The position numbers and the translations under genes were made by a program. This document shows positions 10,961 through 30,943 of a stretch of DNA of 35,043 bases, piece after piece; the first letter of the stretch is position 1, and every line of letters starts with the position of its first letter. Source of the DNA: Rhodobacteraceae bacterium HLUCCA09 (lineage in GTDB: Bacteria > Pseudomonadota > Alphaproteobacteria > Rhodobacterales > Rhodobacteraceae). Under the pieces are notes generated by a model. It made no database searches. It saw only the letters and a program-made list of their open reading frames with translations, and was not told where the DNA came from. The stretch is taken from NCBI GenBank assembly GCA_001314685.1, contig LJNT01000164.1:1-35043 (forward strand), in the 5' to 3' direction.

Positions 10961-12106
10961 TCACATCGCGGCGAGGAACAGGGCGCGCGTGGTCTCGGCC
11001 GTCATCGGCACCGGATTGCCGCCGACGCTGGGGTCTTCCAGCGCCATCGCCGTCAGCTCGTCCACCCGGCCGGCATCGACACCCATCGCGGCGAGGCCAT
11101 CGGGCATGGCGAAGAGCGTGTTCAGCTCGCGCACCCGCGCGGCGAAGCCCTCGAACCCGCCCGGAATGCCGAGATAGGCCGCCGCCTGCGCCAGCTTGCC
11201 CTCGACCGCCGGCCGGTTGAAGGCGAGAACGGCGGGCATCACCACCGCGTTGGTCGTGCCGTGATGGGTGTCGAACACCGCACCGACCGGGTGCGAGAGC
11301 GCGTGGATCGCGCCCAGCCCCTTCTGGAAGGCGACCGCGCCCATCGCCGCCGCGGCCATCATCTGCCCCCGCGCCTCGATATCCGAGCCATCGGCGTAGG
11401 CGCGCGGCAAATATTCGTTGACGAGCCGCAGCCCCTCGAGCGCGATGCCGTGGCTCATCGGGTGGAAATGCGGCGAGCAATACGCCTCGAGACAATGGGC
11501 AAAGGCATCCATCCCAGTGCCGGCGGTGATCCATCGGGGCATGCCCACGGTCAGCTCGGGGTCGGCGATGACCACACCGGGCAGCACGCGCGGGTGAAAG
11601 ATGATCTTTTTCACGTGCGTCTCGGAATTGGTGATGACGCTCGCGCGCCCCACCTCCGAGCCGGTGCCGGCGGTCGTGGGCACGGCGACGATGGGGGCGA
11701 TGCCGGCGGGGTCGGCCCGCGTCCACCAGTCGCCGATATCCTCGAAATCCCAAAGCGGTCGGGTCTGACCCGCCATGAAGGCGACCATCTTGCCGAGGTC
11801 GAGACCCGAGCCGCCGCCGAAGGCCACCACCCCGTCATGTCCGCCCTCGCGGTAGACCGTCAGCCCCGCCTCGAGGTTCGCCTCTGTCGGGTTCGCGTCG
11901 ACCTCGGCGAAGATCGCGCGGCCTAGGCCGGCGGCGTCGAGGATGTCGCGCGCGCGGGCGGTGATCTCGAGCGCCGCAAGCCCGCGGTCGGTGACCAGCA
12001 GGGGCCGGGCGATGCCCGCCTCGGCACAGGCGGCGGGCAACTCGGCCAAGCGCCCCGCGCCGAAGCGGATCGCCGTGGGGTAGGACCAGTTGGCCGTCAG
12101 GATCAT
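10961..12106 (-). CDS. Iron-containing (group III-type) alcohol dehydrogenase
   Basis: MILTANWSYPTAIRFGAGRLAELP..., AFGGGSGLDLGKMVAFM, VPTTAGTGSEVGRASV, GMDAFAHCLEAYCS, HALSHPVGAVFDTHHGTTNA; ATGA overlap with the upstream ALDH gene. Confidence 0.94.
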   Translation of the reverse strand: MILTANWSYPTAIRFGAGRLAELPAACAEAGIARPLLVTDRGLAALEITARARDILDAAGLGRAIFAEVDANPTEANLEAGLTVYREGGHDGVVAFGGGSGLDLGKMVAFMAGQTRPLWDFEDIGDWWTRADPAGIAPIVAVPTTAGTGSEVGRASVITNSETHVKKIIFHPRVLPGVVIADPELTVGMPRWITAGTGMDAFAHCLEAYCSPHFHPMSHGIALEGLRLVNEYLPRAYADGSDIEARGQMMAAAAMGAVAFQKGLGAIHALSHPVGAVFDTHHGTTNAVVMPAVLAFNRPAVEGKLAQAAAYLGIPGGFEGFAARVRELNTLFAMPDGLAAMGVDAGRVDELTAMALEDPSVGGNPVPMTAETTRALFLAAM

Positions 12107-13491
12107 CCCTTGACCTTTCTTAGATGGTAGGAGCGCGGGCGCGTCACCGCGTGGTAGCCCAAGACCGACATCGCGCCGCCCCGCCCGGTATCCTTGCAGC
12201 CCGTCCAGCACACCGCCGGGTCGACGTAGTCGGCCCGGTTGAGAAAGACGGTGCCGGTCTCGATCCTGCGGCCCAGCGCCAGCGCACGCTCGGGGTCGGC
12301 CGTCCAGAACGAGGCGGTCAGGCCGTAGTCGCTGTCGTTCATCAGCGCGAGCGCCTCGTCGTCGCCCTCGACCGGCATGATGCCGACGACGGGGCCGAAG
12401 CTCTCTTCCCGCATCACGCGCATCGAGTGGTCGACGCCCACCAGAACCTGCGGCATCAGGTAGGCACCGCCGTCGTCCTGCGGGAAGTTCTGCCGCTCGA
12501 TCAGGGGCGTGGCGCCGGCTGCCACCGCCGCTTCCGTCTGCTCGCGCACGGTGGCCGCGAAGCGGGCATGGGCCATCGGCCCCAGCGTCGTCTCCTCGTC
12601 CAGCGGGTTGCCGAGCCTGAGCTTGTTGACGAAGTCCACCGCCCGTTCCACGAAATTGTCGTAGTGGCGCCTGTGGACGTAGATGCGCTCGATCCCGCAG
12701 CAGCACTGGCCCGAATTGAACATCGCGCCGTCCATCAGCACGTCGACCGCCCAGTCGAGGTCGGCATCCTCCATGACATAGCCCGGATCCTTGCCGCCGA
12801 GCTCCAGCCCCGTGGCGGTGAAGGTGCCCGCGGCGGCGCGCTCGATGGCGCGCCCCCCCGCGACCGAGCCGGTGAAGTTGACGAAGTCGAAGGCACGGGC
12901 GGCGATCAGCCGCTCGGTGCCCGCGTGGTCGAGCACGACGGTCTGGAACACGTCCTCGGGCACGCCGCCCTTGTGCAGCGCCTCGGCGATGCGCTCGCCC
13001 GCCAGCAGGGTCTGGCTCGCGTGCTTGAGCACCACCGAGTTGCCCGCGATCAGCGCGGGCACGATGGTGTTGAGGGCGGTCAGGTAGGGGTAGTTCCACG
13101 GCGCGATGACAAAGACGACGCCCTGCGGCGCGCGCTCGATCCGCCGCTCGAAGCCGTCGGAGCTTTCGGCGATCATCGGCGCCAGCGCCTCTTCGGCGAT
13201 GCCGGCCATGTAGTCGGCCCGCTCGTCGATGCCGCCGAACTCGCCGCCGAAGCGCACCGGTCGGCCCATCTGCCAGGCGAGCTCTTCCACGATGGCCTCG
13301 CGCGCGTCCTTCAGCGCGGCGACGCCCGCGCGCACCTTCTCGACCCGTTCGCCGAGCGGCAGGGCAGCCCATGCGCCCTGCGCCGCCCTGGCCCGCGCCA
13401 CGGCGTCGTCGGCCGCCTCGGGCGCGAGCGCCGGACGCTCTGCATAGACCCGCCCGTCGACGGGCGAGACGCACTGGATCATTCTGGTCAT
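12103..13491 (-). CDS. NAD(P)-dependent aldehyde dehydrogenase
   Basis: VIAPWNYPYLTALNTIVPALIAGNSVVLKHASQT, ELGGKDPGYVMEDADLDWAV, NSGQCCCGIERIYVH, EESFGPVVGIMPV; RBS GGGAGA. Confidence 0.95.
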   Translation of the reverse strand: MTRMIQCVSPVDGRVYAERPALAPEAADDAVARARAAQGAWAALPLGERVEKVRAGVAALKDAREAIVEELAWQMGRPVRFGGEFGGIDERADYMAGIAEEALAPMIAESSDGFERRIERAPQGVVFVIAPWNYPYLTALNTIVPALIAGNSVVLKHASQTLLAGERIAEALHKGGVPEDVFQTVVLDHAGTERLIAARAFDFVNFTGSVAGGRAIERAAAGTFTATGLELGGKDPGYVMEDADLDWAVDVLMDGAMFNSGQCCCGIERIYVHRRHYDNFVERAVDFVNKLRLGNPLDEETTLGPMAHARFAATVREQTEAAVAAGATPLIERQNFPQDDGGAYLMPQVLVGVDHSMRVMREESFGPVVGIMPVEGDDEALALMNDSDYGLTASFWTADPERALALGRRIETGTVFLNRADYVDPAVCWTGCKDTGRGGAMSVLGYHAVTRPRSYHLRKVKG

Positions 13492-13508
13492 CGGTATCTC
13501 CCGGTGGG

Positions 13509-14873
13509 TCAGGCCCGCTCGAAGCCGCGCTTCACGTCCCAGTCGGTGACGACTCGGTCGGCCTCGGATATCTCCCAAAGTGCCGCGCGATGGTAGTGGT
13601 CGATCACCGCGTCGCCCATGGCACGGCGCAGCATGTCGGAGCCCGCCATCGCCTCGGCCGCGTCGCGGAGCGTCCGGGGCACCTCGCGGGCGTCTTGCGC
13701 CTGGTACATGTCGCCAGACAGCTCCGGCTCGAGCTCTAGGCTCCGCTCGATGCCGTCGAGGCCCGCGGCGAGCTGGCCCGCGACGGCGAGATAGGGGTTG
13801 AGGTCGGCACCGCCCACGCGGCACTCGACGCGCACGGCCTTCGTGCCCTCCCCGCAGACGCGGTAGCCCGCGGTGCGGTTGTCGGTCGACCAGACGGACT
13901 TGGTCGGCGCGAACAGACCCTCGGTGAACCGCTTGTAGGAATTGACATAAGGCGCGAGGAAACAGGTCGTCGCCGCGGCGTGCTCCAACAGGCCCGCGAG
14001 GTAGGATCTCATCGTGGCCGACATGCCGTGCGGCGCGTCCGGGTCGAAGAACGCGGGCGTTCCCCCCTGCCACAGCGACTGGTGGACGTGCGCCGACGAT
14101 CCCGCCCGGTCGGTCGCGTATTTCGCCATGAAGGTGCAGGCGCGGCCGTGGGCATTGGCGATCTCCTTCACGCCCGTCTTGACGATGGCGTGCATGTCGG
14201 CGGTGTCGAGCGCATCGGAATAGCGCACGTTGATCTCTTCCTGCCCCGCCTCGGCCTCGCCCTTGGAATTCTCCACCGGGATGCCCGCGCCGTAGAGGCC
14301 GTTGCGGATGGCCCGCATCACGGTTTCTTCCTTGGTCGTGCCCATGATCGCGTAGTCGAGATTGTAGCGCCCGAGCGTCTGCAGCTCGCGGTATCCCTCG
14401 TCCCACAGCGCGTCGAAGCTCTTCTCGAACAGGAAGAACTCGAGCTCGGTGGCGAACATCGCGTCGAAGCCCATCTCGCGCGCCCGCGCCACCTGCCGCT
14501 TGAGCACGGCGCGGGGGGCGTGGGGCACCTCGGAGTGGGTGTGGTGGTCGAGCACGTCGCACATCACCATCGCCGTTCCCGGCAGCCAGGGCACCCGGCG
14601 CAGCGTGGCGAGGTCGGGCTTGTGCACATAGTCGCCGTAGCCCCGCTCCCAGCTCGACGCGGCATAGCCTGGCACCGTGACCATCTCGATATCGGTGGCC
14701 AGCAGGTAGTCGCAGCCATGCGTCTCGTCGTGGCCGCCATCGACGAAATGCGCAGCGTGGAAGCGCTTGCCCATCAGCCGCCCCTGCATGTCGGTGATGC
14801 AGGTCAGCACGGTGTCGATCTCGCCGGCGGCGACGGCGTCCTGGAGCGCCTCGAAGGTCAGGTTGGCGGGCAT
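13509..14873 (-). CDS. Glutamine synthetase family protein (probable gamma-glutamyl-amine/polyamine ligase rather than ammonia GS)
   Basis: MPANLTFEALQDAVAAGEIDTVLTCITDMQGRLMGKRF..., HGRACTFMAKYATDRAGSSAHVHQSLW, CRVGGADLNPYLAVAGQLAAGLDGI; lacks the FDGSSI motif and adenylylation-site motif present in the glnA of this window. Confidence 0.88.
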   Translation of the reverse strand: MPANLTFEALQDAVAAGEIDTVLTCITDMQGRLMGKRFHAAHFVDGGHDETHGCDYLLATDIEMVTVPGYAASSWERGYGDYVHKPDLATLRRVPWLPGTAMVMCDVLDHHTHSEVPHAPRAVLKRQVARAREMGFDAMFATELEFFLFEKSFDALWDEGYRELQTLGRYNLDYAIMGTTKEETVMRAIRNGLYGAGIPVENSKGEAEAGQEEINVRYSDALDTADMHAIVKTGVKEIANAHGRACTFMAKYATDRAGSSAHVHQSLWQGGTPAFFDPDAPHGMSATMRSYLAGLLEHAAATTCFLAPYVNSYKRFTEGLFAPTKSVWSTDNRTAGYRVCGEGTKAVRVECRVGGADLNPYLAVAGQLAAGLDGIERSLELEPELSGDMYQAQDAREVPRTLRDAAEAMAGSDMLRRAMGDAVIDHYHRAALWEISEADRVVTDWDVKRGFERA

Positions 14874-14971
14874 GCTGGGGTCTTTCCGTCTCGCCGCGTC
14901 GCGCGGCCTCTGTCACGAGGAAGGGCGGAGCGCGCATGGCGCCCCGCCCCGTGCTTTGCCGGAGCCGAGGC

Positions 14972-16060
14972 TCAGCGGTAGGGGTAGCCGGCGGCCTCCT
15001 GCGCGGCGGCGTAGTCCTTGAAGATCTGCACCACGCGGCCGGCGCGATCCGACGAGGCAGCGATCTCGTCCCAGAACTCGGAGGCGTCGGAGACGACCTG
15101 CGCCCATTCCTCGGACGGGATCGAGGTCAGCTCCATCTTCTCGCCCTCGGTGCGCAGCTGCGCCTCGCCGCCCCAGTACCAGACGGCGCGGTAGTAGTGC
15201 GACTGGTCGATGGTGGAGCGGTAGAGTTGCTGCAGGTGGGGCGGCACGGCGTTCCAGCTCTCGGTGTTGGCGAAATAGCTGCCGAACCATGCGCCGGTGA
15301 CCGAGTTGGTCAGCGCGTAGTTGCACACGTCGGCCCAGCCGACCTCGTAGGCCTCGGTGAAGCCGCACCACGCCACGCCGTCGAGCTCGCCGGTGCGCAT
15401 CGCGACTTCCACGTCGTCCCACGGCACGGTGACCGGGATCAGGCCATAGCGGCTGAGGAACCGGCCCGCCGTCGGCACGCCGAACACGCGCAGGCCGCGC
15501 ATGTCTTCGAGCGAGCGGATCGGCTTGTCGACGGTAAAGACATGAAGTGGATCCCACGCGCCGGTCGAGAGCCAAGTGACGTTGTCGACCTCCGAGTAGG
15601 CCTCGTTCCAGATCTCGTCGAGGCCGTAATACATGAACATCGACGCCACATCGAGGCTGTAGCGCGTGGCGAAGGGGAAGTAGCCGCCGAACACGGAGAT
15701 ATCGACCGGCGAGGCCATCGTGGCCTCGTCGGACTGCACGGCGTCCAGCGTGCCGTTCTGCAGCGCGCGGAACAGCTCGCCCGTGGGCACGAGCTGGTCG
15801 GCGTAGTAGAGTTCGATCTCCATCTCGCCGTTGGCCGCGGCATTGAAGGCATCGATTTGCGGCTTGATCACGTGGGCGCCGAGCGGTGCGCCCGAATAGG
15901 TCTGCAGGCGCCAGCGGATCGGGGCCTGCGCCTTGACGATGGCGGGCGCGGCCAGCGTGCCGGCGGCGGCCGCGCCGGCGCCGAGGCCGGCCTTCTTCAG
16001 GAAGCTCCGCCGCGTGGCGAGGATGCGCTCGGAGGGGGATTTGGGCTTGGGGTCGGACAT
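14972..16060 (-). CDS. TRAP transporter substrate-binding protein (DctP family), Tat-type signal
   Basis: MSDPKPKSPSERILATRRSFLKKAGLGAGAAAAGTLAAPAIVKAQ twin-arginine leader; IRSLEDMRGLRVFGVPTAGRFLSRYGLIPVTVPWDDVEVAMRTGELDGVAWCG. Confidence 0.93.
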   Translation of the reverse strand: MSDPKPKSPSERILATRRSFLKKAGLGAGAAAAGTLAAPAIVKAQAPIRWRLQTYSGAPLGAHVIKPQIDAFNAAANGEMEIELYYADQLVPTGELFRALQNGTLDAVQSDEATMASPVDISVFGGYFPFATRYSLDVASMFMYYGLDEIWNEAYSEVDNVTWLSTGAWDPLHVFTVDKPIRSLEDMRGLRVFGVPTAGRFLSRYGLIPVTVPWDDVEVAMRTGELDGVAWCGFTEAYEVGWADVCNYALTNSVTGAWFGSYFANTESWNAVPPHLQQLYRSTIDQSHYYRAVWYWGGEAQLRTEGEKMELTSIPSEEWAQVVSDASEFWDEIAASSDRAGRVVQIFKDYAAAQEAAGYPYR

Positions 16061-16124
16061 GGCTGTCACTCCTCTGTTGACGGGGGCGGCCTCTTGGCGG
16101 GCCGTTCTGGGGTCGCTCGACGTC

Positions 16125-17460
16125 TCATCTCACGCTCACGGTCTCGGGCAGCCAGAGCGCGATCTGCGGAAACATCATCACCAGGGCGATCGTCGCCGCC
16201 ATCATCAGCACGAAGGGCCAGATCGACCTGTAGATGTCGAGCAGCCGGATCTCGGGCGGGGCGAGCGAGCGCATCAGGAACAGGTTGTAGCCGAAGGGCG
16301 GCGTGATGTAGGCGATCTGGCAAGTCATCGTGTAGAGGATGCCGAACCAGATCAGCGTGTTATCGAAGCCGAGGTCGAGCAGGCGCACCAGCGGCACGTA
16401 GAGCGGCGCGACGATCACCAGCATGGCGGTATCGTCGAGGAACATGCCCATCACGATGAAGCTGAGCTGCATCATGATGATCACCTGCCACGGCGTCAGC
16501 TCCCAGTTGTTGATGAACAGGTCCTCGATGGCGCGCACCGCGCCGAGGCCGTCGAACACCGCGCCGAAGGCGAGCGCGGCGAGGATCAGCCAGAGGAACA
16601 TGCACGAGATCGCCAGCGTCTTCCTCGCCGTCTCGTGCAGCAGGCGAAAGCTCATCCGCCCCTTGGCGATGGCGGCGAGCGTGGCGGCCGTGGCGCCGAC
16701 GGCCGCGCTTTCGACGAGGCTGGTGATCCCCATCACGAACAGGCCCGTCATGGTGAAGAAGATCAGGAACGGCAGGATGCCCGCGCGCAGGAGCTTGAGC
16801 TTCTCGCCCAGCGGCATGTTCAGGTCGGCGTCCGAGACGGTGGGGGCGAGATGGGGCTGGAGACGGCAGCGCACGTAGATGTAGATGCCGAACATCGTCG
16901 CCATCAGCAGACCGGGAAACACGCCCGCCAGCCAGAGCTGGCTGACCGGCTCGCGCGCGATCATGCCGTAGAGCACGAGCACCACCGAGGGCGGCACGAG
17001 GATGCCGAGCGACGAGCCGCCCTGCACGACCCCGGTGATCAGGATCTTGTCGTAGCCCCGGCGCAGCATCTCGGGCAGGGCGATGGTGGCGCCGATGGCC
17101 ATGCCGGCGACCGACAGCCCGTTCATCGCCGAGATGATGACCATGAGCAGGATCGTCCCGATGGCGAGCCCCCCCCGCCATGCGCCCGAACCAGACGTGC
17201 AGCATGCGGTAGAGGTCTTCGGCGATGCCCGATTCCGACAGGATGTAGCCCATGTAGATGAACAGCGGCAGCGTCAGCATCGGGAACCAGTTGAACAGCT
17301 TGAACGCCTGGCTGAACGGGATCTCGATGCCGCCCGTCCCGTAGAGGATCAGGACCATGCCGGACGCGACGAAGCCGATGGCGGCGAACACGCGCTGCCC
17401 GGTGAGCAGCAGCACCATCATCGAGGCGAACATCAGAAGCGCGGTCGCCTCGTTCGTCAC
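16125..17460 (-). pseudogene. TRAP transporter large permease (DctM), split by an apparent +1 frameshift at a G8 tract
   Basis: N-terminal part VTNEATALLMFASMMVLLLTGQRVFAAIGF...LHVWFGRMAGG in one frame (GTG start 17460 overlapping the DctQ stop); C-terminal part AIGTILLMVIISAMNGLSVAGMAIGATIALPEMLRRGYDK... in another frame; frames rejoin if one G is removed from the G8 run at 17169-17176. Confidence 0.85.
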
Positions 17461-17969
17461 GCGGGCGCCTCCTCGCGCAGGGTCGCCCAGTGCTTGAACA
17501 CCAGCGATATCGTCTGGAGCAGCATGAGCGCGATGCAGGCCACCATCAGCGACTTGATCGGGATCATCGAGGGGTTCCACATCGAGAACCGCCGCTCGCC
17601 CGTCTCGATGGCGTAGCCGAGCGACGAGATCGAGCCGAACAGCAGCACCGACAGGTAGAAGGCGAGGCAGACCATCGTGATCAGGTCCATCCGGGCCTTT
17701 CCGCGCCTCGACAGGCTCTCGTAGAAGAGGTCCATCCGCACGTGGCTGTCGTTCTTCAGCGTCATCGCCCCGCCCATGAAGTAGTAGGCGGTCAACGTGA
17801 ACTGCGCAGCCTCGATGGCCCAGTGCACGGGGATGTCGATCACGTTGCGGGTGACGGCGTCCATCAGCAGGATGCCGATCATCAGGAAGATCAGGTACAT
17901 CGCGACGATGCCGACATAATCGGACAACCGGTCGACCACCCGAACGTACGTCCTGATCGCCTGTGGCAT
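17457..17969 (-). CDS. TRAP transporter small permease (DctQ)
   Basis: 170-aa membrane protein, MPQAIRTYVRVVDRLSDYVGIVAMYLIFLMIGILLMDAVTRNVIDIPVHWAIEAAQF; immediately upstream of dctM. Confidence 0.9.
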   Translation of the reverse strand: MPQAIRTYVRVVDRLSDYVGIVAMYLIFLMIGILLMDAVTRNVIDIPVHWAIEAAQFTLTAYYFMGGAMTLKNDSHVRMDLFYESLSRRGKARMDLITMVCLAFYLSVLLFGSISSLGYAIETGERRFSMWNPSMIPIKSLMVACIALMLLQTISLVFKHWATLREEAPA

Positions 17970-17985
17970 CCGCCCCGCCCGCCCT

Positions 17986-18780
17986 TCAGCACCTGACCTC
18001 GACGCGCGCGCGCCTCAGCGCGGCGGCGAGGCGCCCCTCTGGCTGTCGATCGGAGACCAGCACGTCGATCTCGTCAAGTCGGCAGACACGGAAGGCCGCG
18101 CGCCGCCCGTGCTTTTCGGCATGCGCCAGCACGATGACGTGGCGGGCGTGGCCGATCATGGCATGGGCGATCTGCGCCTCCTCGAAATCGGCGTCCATCG
18201 CGCCGGCCTCGGCGTCGATCGCGGCGACGCCGAGCACCGCGTGGTCGGCCTGGAAGCGGCCGATCTGCTCGATGGCCATTGGGCCGACCGTCTCGGCGTT
18301 GTCGGCCGACCACGCACCCCCCAGAACGAAGACGCGCGCCCCGCCCCCCGCCGATGTGCCCCCCGCCGATGTGCCGCCCGCCGCGCCCAGCCGCTGCGCG
18401 ATGCGGACCGAGTTGGTGATGACGGTCAGACGGTCGATCTGGGCCAGCTCCTCGGCGCAGGCGAGCGTGGTGGTGCCGGTGTCGAGAAAGATCGTGTCGC
18501 CGGGGGCGATTGCGGCGGCCAGCGTGCGGGCGATGGCGGCTTTCGCCCCGGCCTGCTCCATCCGCCGCTCCTCGAAGCTGCCCTCGGTGGCGAGCCGGAT
18601 GCGGCGTGCTCCGCCGCGCACCTTGTGCAGCGCACCGGTCGAGGCGAGGTCGTGCAGGTCGCGCCGGACCGTCTCGACCGACACCGCGAAGGTCTCGGCC
18701 AGCGCCTCGACCGAGGCGGCGCCGTCCCGCCGGACGATCTGGAGTATCCTGTCCTGTCTGTCCCGCGGTTTCACGCCCAC
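17986..18780 (-). CDS. DeoR/GlpR family transcriptional regulator
   Basis: RQDRILQIVRRDGAASVEALAETFAVSVETVRRDLHDLASTGALHKVRGGA HTH; IFLDTGTTTLACAEEL effector domain. Confidence 0.94.
   Translation of the reverse strand: MGVKPRDRQDRILQIVRRDGAASVEALAETFAVSVETVRRDLHDLASTGALHKVRGGARRIRLATEGSFEERRMEQAGAKAAIARTLAAAIAPGDTIFLDTGTTTLACAEELAQIDRLTVITNSVRIAQRLGAAGGTSAGGTSAGGGARVFVLGGAWSADNAETVGPMAIEQIGRFQADHAVLGVAAIDAEAGAMDADFEEAQIAHAMIGHARHVIVLAHAEKHGRRAAFRVCRLDEIDVLVSDRQPEGRLAAALRRARVEVRC
18346..18375. repeat. Two perfect tandem copies of a 15-bp unit inside the deoR-type gene
   Basis: CCCCGCCGATGTGCC x2, encoding (GGTSA)2 on the minus strand. Confidence 0.9.
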
Positions 18781-18843
18781 CCCCTGCCGGCACCACGAAG
18801 CCCGGGCCGCATGCCCGTGTCAACGCCTTATCGGTTCTCGGAT

Positions 18844-18903
18844 TGCCCGTTTCGGCAGCTTTACCCCTCGAAATTTGACGGAACGGGCAGCGCGTGCCAT
18901 GTT
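18844..18903 (+). promoter_or_regulatory. Candidate promoter (TTGACG-N17-CATGTT) with overlapping inverted repeats, probable DeoR operator region
   Basis: TTGACG 18875-18880, CATGTT 18898-18903; inverted repeats TGCCCGTT (18844-18851)/AACGGGCA (18882-18889) and TTTCG (18850-18854)/CGAAA (18869-18873). Confidence 0.5.
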
Positions 18904-18935
18904 TCGCCAAAGTCCGCCCAAAAGGAGACCGAGCC

Positions 18936-20333
18936 ATGACCAGCGAGTCCGCCGTGCCGCGCGGCCCCTTCGACGTGGCCATTGTCGGCGGCGGGGTGGT
19001 GGGCTGCGCGCTCGCCCGGCGCTTCGCGCTCGCGGGGGCCTCGGTGGTGCTGATGGAAAAGGCGGTCGACATCCTCGACGGCGCCTCGAAGGGCAACAGC
19101 GCCATTCTGCACACCGGCTTCGACGCGCCGCCGGGCTCGCTCGAGGCGGCCTGCATCGCCGAGGGCTACCGTGACTACGACGAGATCCACGCCCGCCTCG
19201 GCCTGCCGCTGATCCGCTCGGGCGCCCTCGTCGTCGCGTGGACCGACGCGCAGGAGGCGGCGCTGCCGTCGCTGATGGAGAAGGCCCGCGCCAACGGGGT
19301 GAGCGACGTCGCCCCCCTCACCCGCGCCGAGACGCTGGCGCTCGAGCCGCATCTCGCGCCCACCCTGCGCGCAAGTTTCCGGGTTCCGCGCGAGGGGCTG
19401 ATCGACCCGTGGTCGGCGCCGCTCGCCTACCTGACGCAGGCGATGGCGCACGGCGCAGAGGTGCTGCGCGGCTGCGCGGTGACGGGCGGGGCGCGGGCCG
19501 GCGACCTCTGGCGGCTCGACACAACCCTGGGCGAGGTCTCGGCGCGGCTCGTGATCAACGCGGCGGGGCTCTACGGCGATCTGCTCGACGAGGCGCTGAT
19601 CGGCCGGCGCGACTTCACCATTCGGCCGCGCAAGGGCCAGTTCGTCGTCTACGACAAGCCGGCGGCGGCGCTCGCGGGTCACATCCTGCTGCCGGTGCCG
19701 ACAGCGATCACCAAGGGCATCGTCGTCTGCCGCACCGCCTGGGGCAACCTGCTTGTCGGCCCCACCGCTGAAGAGCAGGAGGACCGCGCCAACGCCCCCC
19801 TCGACCATGCCACGCTCGACGCCCTGCGCGCGAAGGGAGAAGAGATCCTGCCCGCCCTCGCCGAGCACGACGTGACCGCCGTCTATGCCGGCCTGCGCCC
19901 CGCGACGGAGGAAAAGGACTACCGGATCGCGGTGCACGAGGCCGGCAGCTACGTCACCGTGGGCGGCATCCGCTCGACGGGGCTGAGCGCCGCGCTCGGC
20001 ATCGCCTCGCACGTGCTGCGGCTGGCGCAAGAGGCAGGGCATGGCTGGCAGGCGCCGAACGAGGTGGCCTGGCCCAGGATGCGCAACATCTCGATCGCCG
20101 CCCCGCGCGACCACGAGAGCGCCGGGAACGGCGGCATAGTCTGCCATTGCGAGCAGGTGACGCGGCGCGAGATCGAGGCGGCGCTGTCGGCCCCCCTGCC
20201 CGCCCGCAGCCTCTCCGGGCTGAAGCGGCGCACGCGGGTGACGATGGGGCGTTGCCAGGGCTTCCACTGCTCGGGGCCGCTCGCGCGCATGACGGCGGGC
20301 GCGTTCGACCTGCCCATGGCCGGCAATGGCTGA
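18936..20333 (+). CDS. GlpA-like FAD-dependent oxidoreductase with C-terminal BFD-like [2Fe-2S] domain
   Basis: FDVAIVGGGVVGCALARRFALAGASVVLMEK; NSAILHTGFDAPPGSLEA; IVCHCEQVTRREIEAAL...RRTRVTMGRCQGFHC; RBS AAAGGAGA. Confidence 0.93.
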   Translation: MTSESAVPRGPFDVAIVGGGVVGCALARRFALAGASVVLMEKAVDILDGASKGNSAILHTGFDAPPGSLEAACIAEGYRDYDEIHARLGLPLIRSGALVVAWTDAQEAALPSLMEKARANGVSDVAPLTRAETLALEPHLAPTLRASFRVPREGLIDPWSAPLAYLTQAMAHGAEVLRGCAVTGGARAGDLWRLDTTLGEVSARLVINAAGLYGDLLDEALIGRRDFTIRPRKGQFVVYDKPAAALAGHILLPVPTAITKGIVVCRTAWGNLLVGPTAEEQEDRANAPLDHATLDALRAKGEEILPALAEHDVTAVYAGLRPATEEKDYRIAVHEAGSYVTVGGIRSTGLSAALGIASHVLRLAQEAGHGWQAPNEVAWPRMRNISIAAPRDHESAGNGGIVCHCEQVTRREIEAALSAPLPARSLSGLKRRTRVTMGRCQGFHCSGPLARMTAGAFDLPMAGNG

Positions 20334-21543
20334 CATTCCGGCCGAGGTCGACGTGGCCATCGTCGGGGCCGGCCCGGCGGGGCTGGCCGCCGCGACCGAG
20401 CTCTGCCGCCTGCGCGCGGGGCGCGTGCTGGTGGTCGAGCGCGAGGCCGAGGCGGGCGGTGTGCCGCGCTTCTGCGGCCACTCTCCCTATGGCATGCGCG
20501 AGTTCGGCCGGCCGATGCTCGGCCCCGGCTACGCCCGGGCGCTGGTGGCACGGGCGGAGGCGGCGGGCGCGCAGATCGCCACCGGCGTCACCGTCACCGC
20601 CCTGCGCGACGGGCCGCGCCTGACAGTCACGTCCGACGCCGGCACGGGCGAGGTCGCCGCGCGGCTCGTCCTGCTGACGACCGGCATCCGCGAGACGACG
20701 CGGGCGGGCCGGATGATCGGCGGAACCAAGCCCGGCGGCGTGCTCACCACCGGCGGCCTGCAGGGCCTCGTCTACGGCGCGGGGCTACGCCCTTTCCGGC
20801 GGCCCGTCATCCTCGGCACCGAGCTCGTCGCCTTCTCGGCGATCCTCACCTGCCGCCACGCCGGCATCCGGCCCGCGGCGATGGTCGAGCCGGGGGCGCG
20901 CATCACCGCCCGGCACCCGGCGGGCCTGCTGCCGCGCCTGCTCGGCCTCCCCCTGCATCTCGGCACCGATCTCGCCGCCATCGAGGGGCGCGAGCGGGTC
21001 GAGGCGGTGGTGCTGCGCTCGGGCGGGGCCGAGCGGCGGCTCGAGGCGGACGGAGTGATCGTGACCGGCCGCTTCCGGCCCGAGGCGACGCTGTCGCGCG
21101 AGGGCGGGCTGACCTACGACCCGGCGACGGGCGGGCCGGAGGTCGACGAGTACGGCCGCACCTCCGATCCCGCGATCTTTGCCGCGGGCAACCTGCTGCG
21201 CCCCGTCGAGACGGCGGGCTGGTGCTGGGGCGAGGGGCGCGCCGTGGCCGGCGCCATGGCCGTCGCGCTGGCGGGCGCGCTGCCGCCCCCCGCCGTTCGG
21301 CGCGTCGCCCGCACGGGCGCGATTGCCTGGGTGGTGCCGCAGCGCATCGCGGGGGGCTGCTCGCCCGCGCTCGACACCCTGCAGATGCGGGCGGCCCGGG
21401 CCGCCTCGGGGCGGCTGTCGCTGTCGGTCGACGGGCACGAGGCCGCCGCCCGTGCCCTCCGCGCCCTGCCGGAGCGGCGGATGCTGCTGCCCCTGCCCGC
21501 CGGCACGGGATCGCCGGAAGTCAGGCTGGAGGCCGCGCCATGA
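20326..21543 (+). CDS. NAD(P)/FAD-dependent oxidoreductase (pyridine nucleotide-disulfide type)
   Basis: VDVAIVGAGPAGLAAATELCRLRAGRVLVVERE; GIRETTRAGRMIGGTKPGGVLTTGGLQ; DPAIFAAGNLLRPVETAGWCWGEGRAVAGAMA; overlaps the GlpA-like gene. Confidence 0.92.
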   Translation: MADIPAEVDVAIVGAGPAGLAAATELCRLRAGRVLVVEREAEAGGVPRFCGHSPYGMREFGRPMLGPGYARALVARAEAAGAQIATGVTVTALRDGPRLTVTSDAGTGEVAARLVLLTTGIRETTRAGRMIGGTKPGGVLTTGGLQGLVYGAGLRPFRRPVILGTELVAFSAILTCRHAGIRPAAMVEPGARITARHPAGLLPRLLGLPLHLGTDLAAIEGRERVEAVVLRSGGAERRLEADGVIVTGRFRPEATLSREGGLTYDPATGGPEVDEYGRTSDPAIFAAGNLLRPVETAGWCWGEGRAVAGAMAVALAGALPPPAVRRVARTGAIAWVVPQRIAGGCSPALDTLQMRAARAASGRLSLSVDGHEAAARALRALPERRMLLPLPAGTGSPEVRLEAAP

Positions 21544-21677
21544 CGGCACCCGCGCGCCGTCTCGACACGGCGAGCAGTCTGCCGGAGGCTGGTCGTCTCG
21601 CGTCGGCCCTGTCGGGCCGGGATCGGCCCCGGCACACCGGAGCGCGACCGGGCCCGCCCCCGGAGGCCGCGCCATGA
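21540..21677 (+). CDS. Candidate 45-aa micro-ORF, ATGA-coupled at both ends
   Basis: MTAPARRLDTASSLPEAGRLASALSGRDRPRHTGARPGPPPEAAP; start ATG overlaps the upstream TGA and its TGA overlaps the downstream ATG; flanked by a perfect 17-bp direct repeat. Confidence 0.35.
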   Translation: MTAPARRLDTASSLPEAGRLASALSGRDRPRHTGARPGPPPEAAP

Positions 21678-23092
21678 CCATTCTCGCGCTCGACCAGGGC
21701 ACCACCAGCACCCGCGCGGTGATCGTGGGCGAGGACGGCACGGTGCGCGTGGCCCGAGCCGTCGCGCACCGTCAGTCCTACCCCGGCCCCGGCCGGGTGG
21801 AGCACGACCCCGAGGAGCTGCTCGCCAACCTCTCTGCCTGCCTCGACGCCGCGCCCGGCGCCCGCGCCGTGGGCCTTGCCAACCAGGGCGAGAGCTGCCT
21901 TGGCTGGGACGCGCAGACGGGACGCGCGATCACCCCCGTCATCGTCTGGCAGGACGAGCGGACGACCCCCGTGGTCGAGCGACTGCGCGCCGAAGGGGCC
22001 GAGACGCTGACGCTCGCCGGCGCGGGTCTGCCGCTCGACCCCTACTTCTCGGCCTCGAAGCTCGGCTGGATCCTGCGCGACGTGCCCGAGGCGCGCGCGC
22101 TGGCACGATCGGGCCGCCTGCGCCTCGGCACGACCGACGCCTTCTTCCGCCATCGCCTCACAGGGCGCTGCGAGACCGATCCCACCACCGCCTCGCGCAC
22201 CTCGCTGATGAACCTCGCCACCTGCGCATGGGACGACGAGCTCTGCGCCCTGTTCGGCGTGCCGGTCGAGGCGCTGCCCGCCATCGTGCCCACCACCGGC
22301 GACCTGGGCCGGACAGGCGGGCTGCCGCTGACCGCCTCGGTCGTCGATCAGCAGGCGGCGCTGCGCGGCCACGGCTGCACGGCGCCCGGCGCTGCCAAGA
22401 TCACCTTTGGCACCGGCGCCTTCGTGCTTGCCGTGGGCGGCGTCACACCCCCCGAGGCCGGGCATGGCCCGCTGCCGACCGTGGCCTGGGCGGAGCGCGA
22501 CGCACCGCCCACCTACGCGCTCGAGGGGGGCGTCTACGCCGCCGCGGCCGCGGTGAACTGGGCGCGAGGCCTCGGCCTCTTCTCCGACTTCGCCGAGATT
22601 TCCGCCTTCGACGCGCCCCCCGCGATCTCGCGCGGGCTGTCCTTCGTGCCCGCGCTCACGGGCCTCGGCTGCCCGCACTGGGACAGGTCGGCCAAGGGCG
22701 CGTGGCTGGGCATGACCCTCGACACCGGGCCGCGCGACCTGGTGCAGGCCGTGCTCGAGGGCGTCGCCTTCCGCGCGGCCGAGGTGCTGGGCGCCATCGG
22801 CCGGGTGCAGCCGCTCGCCGGCCCCGTCTCGGTCGACGGGGGCATGACGCGCAACCCGTGGTTCTGCGCCGTCCTCGCCGACACGCTGGGCGTGCCCGTG
22901 ACCGTGTCGGACGAGCCCGAACTGACCGCCCTCGGCGCGGCAGACCTCGCGGCGGCGGGTGCGGGCCTCGCGCTCTCGCTTCGTCGCGCGGGCCAAACGG
23001 TCGAGCCGCGCCCGCAGCCGCCCGACTGGGCCGACCGCTTCGCCGAGGCGCGCCGTCTCGTGCAGGAGTATGGCGGGACGGGCCGGCGCTGA
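21674..23092 (+). CDS. FGGY-family carbohydrate kinase, glycerol-kinase-like
   Basis: MTILALDQGTTSTRAVIVGEDG, VIVWQDERTT, PYFSASKLGWIL, VVDQQAALRGHGCTAPGAAKITFGTGAF, GGMTRNPWFCAVLADTLGVPV. Confidence 0.92.
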   Translation: MTILALDQGTTSTRAVIVGEDGTVRVARAVAHRQSYPGPGRVEHDPEELLANLSACLDAAPGARAVGLANQGESCLGWDAQTGRAITPVIVWQDERTTPVVERLRAEGAETLTLAGAGLPLDPYFSASKLGWILRDVPEARALARSGRLRLGTTDAFFRHRLTGRCETDPTTASRTSLMNLATCAWDDELCALFGVPVEALPAIVPTTGDLGRTGGLPLTASVVDQQAALRGHGCTAPGAAKITFGTGAFVLAVGGVTPPEAGHGPLPTVAWAERDAPPTYALEGGVYAAAAAVNWARGLGLFSDFAEISAFDAPPAISRGLSFVPALTGLGCPHWDRSAKGAWLGMTLDTGPRDLVQAVLEGVAFRAAEVLGAIGRVQPLAGPVSVDGGMTRNPWFCAVLADTLGVPVTVSDEPELTALGAADLAAAGAGLALSLRRAGQTVEPRPQPPDWADRFAEARRLVQEYGGTGRR

Positions 23093-28998: not shown

Positions 28999-29457
<459 letters not shown>

Positions 29458-29536
29458 GCGCCCTCTGTCCCGCGCCCCGGCGGGCCTCCGCCGCCCCGTC
29501 CATCAACGGTAACCGAAGCAAGAGGAACTCCCTCCC

Positions 29537-30943
29537 ATGAGCAAAGACGACGTTCTCAAGCAGATCAAGGACGAGGAGGTCGCCTATGTCGACCTGCGCT
29601 TCACCGATCCGCGGGGCAAGCTGCAGCACGTGACGGTCATGTCCGACCAGGTGGACGCGGACTTCTTCGACGAGGGCTTCATGTTCGACGGCTCCTCGAT
29701 CGCCGGGTGGAAGTCGATCGACCAGTCGGACATGAAGCTGATGCCCGACCCCGACTCGGCCTACGTGGACCCGTTCTACGCCGAAAAGACGCTCTGCGTG
29801 CACTGCTCGGTCGTCGAGCCCGACACGGGCGAGCCCTACAACCGCGACCCGCGCGGCACCGCGCAGCTCGCCGAGGCCTACCTCAAGTCGTCGGGCATCG
29901 GCGACACGGCGTTCTTCGGCCCCGAGGCGGAGTTCTTCCTGTTCGACGACGTCCGCTTCTCGGTCGAGATGAACAAGGTGGGCTACCAGATCGACGCGCA
30001 GGACGCGTCGTGGAACACCGATACCGAATACGAGATGGGCAACATGGGCCACCGCCCCGGCGTCAAGGGCGGCTACTTCCCCGTGAACCCGATCGATGAC
30101 GGGATGGACCTGCGCTCCGAGATGCTGTCGACCATGAAGCGTATGGGCATGAGCGTCGACAAGCACCACCACGAGGTGGCGTCGTGCCAGCACGAACTCG
30201 GGCTCATCTTCAGCTCGCTCACCAAGCAGGCCGACGAACTGCAGAAATACAAGTACGTGATCCACAACGTGGCCCACGCCTACGGCAAGTCGGCCACCTT
30301 CATGCCCAAGCCGATCGCGGGCGACAACGGCACCGGCATGCACGTCAACATGTCGGTCTGGAAGGATGGCAAGCCGCTCTTCGCCGGCGACAAGTACGCC
30401 GATCTGTCGGACGAGGCCCTGTGGTACATCGGCGGCGTTCTGAAGCACGCCAAGACGCTCAACGCCTTCACCAACCCCTCGACCAACTCCTACAAGCGCC
30501 TGATCCCCGGATTCGAGGCGCCGGTGCTGCGCGCCTACTCGGCCCGCAACCGCTCGGGCTGCGTGCGCATCCCCTGGGCCGAGAGCCCCAAGGCCAAGCG
30601 GGTCGAAGCGCGCTTCCCCGACCCCTCGGCGAACCCCTATCTCTGCTTCGCCGCGCTCCTGATGGCCGGTCTCGACGGGATCAAGAACAAGATCGATCCG
30701 GGCGAGGCGATGGACAAGGATCTCTACGACCTGCCCCCCGAAGAGCTCGAGGGCATCCCCACGGTCTGCGCCTCGCTGCGCGAGGCGATCGAGAGCCTCG
30801 AGGCGGACCACGAGTTCCTGCTGGCGGGCGACGTGTTCACCAAGGACCAGCTCGAGGGCTACATGGAGCTGAAGTGGGAAGAGATCTACGCCTACGAGCA
30901 CACCCCGCACCCGGTCGAGTTCAAGCTGTACTACAGCTGCTGA
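29537..30943 (+). CDS. glnA: Type I glutamine synthetase
   Basis: 468 aa; [46 protein letters not shown] adenylylation site. Confidence 0.99.

Follow-up and report, generated by a model that had tools for sequence, protein, structure and literature searches.

A divergent two-armed locus of Rhodobacteraceae bacterium HLUCCA09 predicted to serve ethanolamine and a glycerol-like alcohol

Ethanolamine is a building block of membrane lipids. Which compounds are handled by a locus that combines genes of ethanolamine-type catabolism with divergent genes resembling those for glycerol use? This question is raised by positions 10961-23092 of a stretch of 35,043 nucleotides (the window) from Rhodobacteraceae bacterium HLUCCA09, contig LJNT01000164.1. 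Judged by sequence comparison, this two-armed locus probably serves both ethanolamine and a glycerol-like alcohol, with one tripartite ATP-independent periplasmic (TRAP) importer and one DeoR regulator at the divergent promoter. Gene identities were derived from open reading frames (ORFs) and Pfam/NCBIfam profiles, and PDB relatives were judged by E-value. Two sets were used for comparison: 397 family genomes, and 80 loci from named genomes with a window-type DctP, the solute-binding protein (SBP) of the TRAP transporter. L-numbers (e.g. L112) designate compared loci and G-numbers (e.g. G003) compared genomes. The locus comprises the following features:

10961..12106, minus strand: iron-dependent alcohol dehydrogenase (Fe-ADH), GETADH-like (gamma-glutamylethanolamide dehydrogenase); PF00465/PF25137, eto operon order, 72% to the Paracoccus denitrificans homologue
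12103..13491, minus strand: aldehyde dehydrogenase (ALDH), GAADDH-like; PF00171, position, 71% identity to the P. denitrificans homologue
13509..14873, minus strand: glutamine synthetase (GS)-like putative gamma-glutamyl-ethanolamide ligase, ETAGA-like; PF00120, best PDB match 5dm3 (E=2e-189)
14972..16069, minus strand: DctP, TRAP SBP of a second EtoX-like clade; best PDB match 4uab/4xf5 (E=2e-133), clade fingerprint
16125..17460, minus strand: dctM, large permease, frameshifted; PF06808
17457..17969, minus strand: dctQ, small permease; PF04290
17986..18780, minus strand: DeoR/GlpR-type repressor; PF08220/PF00455, at the RpiR-GGAH place of the eto operon
18781..18935, no strand: divergent promoter region between deoR and the glpA-like gene; contains GTTGACACGG
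18894..20333 (likely start 18936), plus strand: GlpA-like FAD dehydrogenase (DAO/Fer2_BFD) with a C-terminal BFD [2Fe-2S] domain; PF01266, PF04324
20326..21543, plus strand: FAD/NAD-type oxidoreductase, the presumed electron-transfer partner; PF07992
21674..23092, plus strand: FGGY kinase, Gly in place of the GlpK signature residue Arg83; score of 389.8 bits (GlpK cut-off 590)

The minus arm resembles a known system. The eto operon of Phaeobacter sp. MED193 has the order RpiR-GGAH-EtoVWX-ETAGA-GAADDH-GETADH, and its SBP binds ethanolamine with a dissociation constant of 7.9 µM (PMC10132767). GGAH is gamma-glutamylglycine amidohydrolase. The route leads from gamma-glutamylethanolamide via the aldehyde to gamma-glutamylglycine and glycine (PMC10132767, PMC6529630). 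In the window, the genes for TRAP transporter, GS-like enzyme, ALDH and Fe-ADH stand in the identical order, with the three enzyme genes following that of the SBP. The differences are a missing GGAH gene, an SBP of another clade, the divergent GlpA/FAD/FGGY arm and the regulator: No RpiR gene is divergent from the operon, and DeoR is present instead. The GlnA4 pathway of Streptomyces coelicolor likewise gamma-glutamylates ethanolamine and then performs two oxidations, but it employs another dehydrogenase and regulator and has neither a TRAP transporter nor a kinase arm (PMC6529630). Because both gene order and proposed chemistry match these descriptions (PMC10132767, PMC6529630), the predicted minus-arm enzymes are those of the characterised ethanolamine pathway and known in kind. 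A first-pass annotation of this DNA had recognised no characterised pathway here; for the minus-arm enzymes, this is superseded by the two reports, and a novel pathway for this arm was rejected, as the enzymes match the described gamma-glutamylation route of the eto operon (PMC10132767).

The same operon is present in Paracoccus, too, and a Sinorhizobium version uses an amino-acid permease as transporter. An orthologue of the GS-like protein was found in 252 of the 397 family genomes. Against the PuuA model NF045547, this protein scores 207.9 bits, below the cut-off of 650. Its best PDB match, 5dm3, we take to be Csal_0679, the neighbour of Csal_0678. On the Aminobacter conjugative plasmid pAA03 (L038), a TRAP-less GGAH-GS-ALDH-ADH cluster directly adjoins bhcABCD, annotated for glyoxylate catabolism, which could use the glycine formed.

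DctP carries a Tat-type signal. Its match to 4uab/4xf5 extends over the full length, whereas the next best PDB hit reaches only 4e-16. 4UAB is Csal_0678 with bound ethanolamine (PMC12410723). The acidic platform Glu, mapped to Glu220 of 4UAB, is residue 239 in the window (numbering offset of 3 inferred) and common to EtoX and the window clade. We infer that the SBP binds ethanolamine. All three minus-arm enzymes, and also this best solved relative of the SBP, agree with the earlier guess that the substrate is an amino-alcohol or ethanolamine. In the family genomes, DctP relatives form two groups: 28 genomes have a protein with at least 75% identity, and the rest reach at most 68%. The DctP of Rhodovulum sp. 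12E13 is 98% identical to that of the window. A clean fingerprint difference separates the window clade from EtoX. An AlphaFold model of DctP from one sequence had a mean pLDDT of 35 and was unusable.

Beyond enzyme identities and a conserved unit, comparison at the sequence level establishes an exclusion of EtoX, a swap of SBPs and reciprocal losses. Canonical EtoX is encoded in none of the 28 genomes with the window SBP, where 12 would be expected (P about 6e-8, phylogeny ignored), and a single EtoW-type permease is encoded in every genome searched. The eto operon of Gemmobacter aestuarii (L193/L235) and that of a Frigidibacter metagenome-assembled genome (L233/L234) comprise RpiR, GGAH and both permease genes and lack EtoX; in the same two genomes, a window-type SBP without permease adjoins the GlpA arm. 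At G302:C5 (L193), the permease genes are intact and only ~220 bp are left at the place of etoX. In G003 (L236), a window-type SBP occupies the EtoX position within an otherwise canonical eto operon. The most economical explanation is import of ethanolamine by the window-type SBP together with the eto permease. As this SBP also belongs with the kinase arm, it probably supplies the substrate of the kinase as well. This means, the transporter would carry ethanolamine and probably also the substrate of the kinase.

The two-armed arrangement is a recurrent unit and far from chance, because the GlpA/FAD/FGGY arm adjoins DctP in 66 of the 80 related loci. Among the family genomes, the SBP clade is present in 28, the GlpA-like gene in 29 and both in 26 (Fisher P about 3e-35, phylogeny ignored). 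Co-conservation of the arms, set beforehand as the test that could refute the first-pass proposal, was thus found. The unit is spread over Rhodobacterales, Hyphomicrobiales and Rhodospirillales and, in addition, the gammaproteobacteria Marinobacter and Polycyclovorans. Four ethanolamine-type arrangements occur beside the SBP clade: GS-ALDH-ADH directly after dctP (16/80 loci), GGAH-GS-ALDH after the kinase gene (3/80), another GS (about 31%) with ALDH (2/80), and EutB or EutBC, the ethanolamine ammonia-lyase, nearby (7/80). At least two clades are represented among the GS genes that follow dctP, and one is the sister group of the canonical Paracoccus eto GS genes. Furthermore, EutB is encoded in three of the five family genomes that have the TRAP clade but no GS, compared to 21 of the other 392. 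In L241 (6091-13509), eutB-eutC-deoR-glpA-fad-fggy form a single run, with no window-type TRAP genes in the stretch read. A different TRAP set lies beside this kinase gene on the opposite strand; its DctM is only 27% like canonical EtoW. L180, L182, L184 and L187 have the same TRAP clade as the window without the GlpA arm. Near or directly after dctP, a DUF1989 gene was found in L182, L187 and, judged by sequence, L184, and in L180 a gene for an MttB-family methyltransferase adjoins on the other strand.

How could both arms be regulated? The DeoR protein is composed of an HTH_DeoR and a DeoRC sensor domain, and most of the 80 related loci have its gene at the divergent promoter. A k-mer search of 58 homologous intergenic regions yielded 50 occurrences of TTGACA/TGTCAA compared to 3.6 expected, often as GTTGACAyGGkCA. 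This conserved motif may be a -35 promoter element or a DeoR operator, for both of which it is a candidate only. DeoR would control both arms.

In the proposed mechanism, ethanolamine would be imported by the TRAP transporter and joined to glutamate by the GS-like enzyme. Fe-ADH would oxidise the product to the aldehyde and ALDH convert this to gamma-glutamylglycine, from which a hydrolase encoded outside the locus would release glycine and glutamate. In the plus arm, the FGGY kinase would phosphorylate a C3-type alcohol, whose C2 hydroxyl would be oxidised by the GlpA-like/FAD/[2Fe-2S] complex to yield dihydroxyacetone phosphate or an analogue.

Is this C3-type alcohol glycerol? In the GlpA-like protein and its relatives (66/66), the residues aligned with S47, H51, K258, R320 and S348 of Mycoplasma pneumoniae GlpO (4X9M) are kept, positions that, apart from His51, we take to belong to the substrate site. 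The four Cys of the BFD domain are kept in 66/66 as well. In GlpO, His51 abstracts the C2-hydroxyl proton (PMC10726252). Because the GlpA-like protein retains the GlpO-site residues including this His, the plus-arm intermediate likely carries both a phosphate and a C2 hydroxyl. In contrast to GlpO/GlpA, the window protein additionally contains the BFD [2Fe-2S] domain and is paired with its own FAD oxidoreductase, and it scores under the family cut-offs (201.4 bits with NF033460, type II GlpO, cut-off 460). For the FAD oxidoreductase, no PDB relative at E<=1e-8 was found.

The kinase shares the FGGY fold of GlpK, whose signature is Arg83-Glu84-Tyr135-Asp245-Phe270 with Arg83 hydrogen-bonding glycerol (PMC3245297). 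The equivalents of the other four residues are kept in the window kinase and its relatives. By contrast, Gly replaces Arg83 in the window kinase, where it is residue 72, and in 64/64 relatives, whereas the position is Arg in 27/27 true GlpKs from the same genomes. Since Arg83 is lost in 64/64 and in 0/27 true GlpKs, the substrate is probably a glycerol analogue rather than glycerol itself, with a distal group that probably differs from that of glycerol. Candidates are glycerol, serinol and 3-amino-1,2-propanediol.

The alternative that survives best is that the plus arm performs plain glycerol catabolism and that the locus salvages glycerol and ethanolamine of phosphatidylethanolamine after extracellular hydrolysis. 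It is a possible reading, although we would not prefer it. In the PDB, the kinase is closest to glycerol kinases, and residues that align with the glycerol 3-phosphate (G3P) site of GlpO are retained in the GlpA-like protein. In addition, DeoR scores best with GlpR models, and in Phaeobacter a GlpR protein and the eto proteins both increase on phosphorylethanolamine (PMC10132767). However, the glycerol-bonding Arg is replaced throughout (PMC3245297), the kinase remains 200 bits under the cut-off of the GlpK model TIGR01311, and 27 of the 29 genomes searched, including that of the window, encode a separate true GlpK. For the same reasons, the plus arm cannot be regarded as an ordinary GlpA/GlpK set, and plain glycerol is weakened as its substrate.

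Somewhat more doubtful is that the plus arm handles an amino-triol (serinol, 3-amino-1,2-propanediol) that enters through the same amino-alcohol transporter. A site that has lost the Arg facing a glycerol hydroxyl but retained the Glu would suit an ammonium group. The SBP keeps the mapped amine-binding Glu220 but has the smaller residues T175G, F176V and F230A, and ethanolamine sites can accommodate serinol and alaninol, as in CqsR (PMC12410723). On the other hand, serinol and 3-amino-1,2-propanediol are not known as abundant natural compounds, and deamination at C2 is disfavoured by the conserved His, which takes up the C2-hydroxyl proton (PMC10726252).

Several observations weigh against ethanolamine as a cargo of this transporter and as the substrate of a complete route. 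A GGAH orthologue was not found in the window genome, and a substitute, sought beside the ethanolamine GS genes and in the window genome, was confined to a 36% FGase-family protein encoded beside pyruvate kinase. GGAH is also absent from most relatives with the window TRAP clade and GS. Compared to EtoX and Csal_0678, DctP has substitutions at ~30 positions that are conserved otherwise, including D96A, T175G, F176V and F230A (chain numbering); several of the ~30 are close to the presumed ligand site. It does not carry the EtoX fingerprint. Because of these substitutions, the window SBP may have changed its ligand. Moreover, in 52 of the 80 loci the DNA read shows no ethanolamine module adjoining the transporter, and both a GS orthologue and EutB are missing from two of the 28 genomes (G163, G004).

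These pocket differences, and the majority of loci in which TRAP genes are paired with the GlpA/FGGY arm only, favour a transporter that carries solely the kinase substrate, with ethanolamine enzymes attached by chance recombination and ethanolamine entering otherwise. Nevertheless, this is unlikely: EtoX exclusion, SBP swap and reciprocal losses speak against it, different ethanolamine enzymes have been attached repeatedly and independently, and in L162, L181, L139 and L157 the TRAP clade lacks the GlpA arm and lies beside EutBC or GS/ALDH. A single parent compound such as glycerophosphoethanolamine would account for a C3 polyol arm being coupled to an amine arm but is very improbable, as the locus encodes no phosphodiesterase, the kinase would be superfluous if G3P were released, and the related EtoX bound neither phosphorylethanolamine nor G3P (PMC10132767). 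The single source of amine and C3 polyol considered in the first-pass annotation is not needed; two compounds with a shared importer fit better.

What is new under this two-compound reading? The enzymes and the ethanolamine route are known. The conserved combination with the divergent TRAP clade and the FGGY/GlpA-like arm is apparently undescribed; a literature search yielded nothing relevant on a glycerol TRAP transporter or on a locus with ethanolamine genes, TRAP transporter and glycerol kinase. A more far-reaching proposal is put forward tentatively: The window-type proteins might be a second class of ethanolamine-type TRAP SBPs with a remodelled pocket that carries ethanolamine and a glycerol analogue, e.g. 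an amino-triol. The analogue would be degraded by an FGGY kinase of new specificity (Gly-Glu-Tyr-Asp-Phe) and the GlpA-like [2Fe-2S] complex, an undescribed pathway in three alphaproteobacterial orders and some gammaproteobacteria. Counts of ethanolamine uptake genes in ocean metagenomes rest on EtoX-type proteins (PMC10132767), and an SBP clade that takes the place of EtoX and is coupled to a different pathway could be counted wrongly there. It would link the use of ethanolamine to that of a second compound. The kinase signature breaks the glycerol-kinase rule and is directly testable. Furthermore, the natural SBP swap and the reciprocal losses provide cases for studying the pairing of TRAP binding proteins and permeases.

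The gene order and strands of the first-pass annotation agree with the ORFs and Pfam/NCBIfam profiles for all named genes, except that the ORF of dctM is interrupted. The frame of its start (17460, overlapping dctQ by 4 bp) differs from that of its body (16125-17144), and the break falls in a run of eight G near 17184. Because dctM reads through uninterrupted in the same-genus relative L112, the frameshift is predicted to be an assembly error or a recent mutation. The overlaps claimed earlier exist between dctQ and dctM, between the ALDH and ADH genes (4 bp) and between the GlpA-like and FAD oxidoreductase genes (8 bp); the FAD oxidoreductase and kinase genes, however, are separated by a gap of 130 bp. 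About 6 kb downstream of the kinase gene, positions 29119-30943 of the window contain genes that, as identified by eye, look like glnB and a true glnA of primary nitrogen assimilation.

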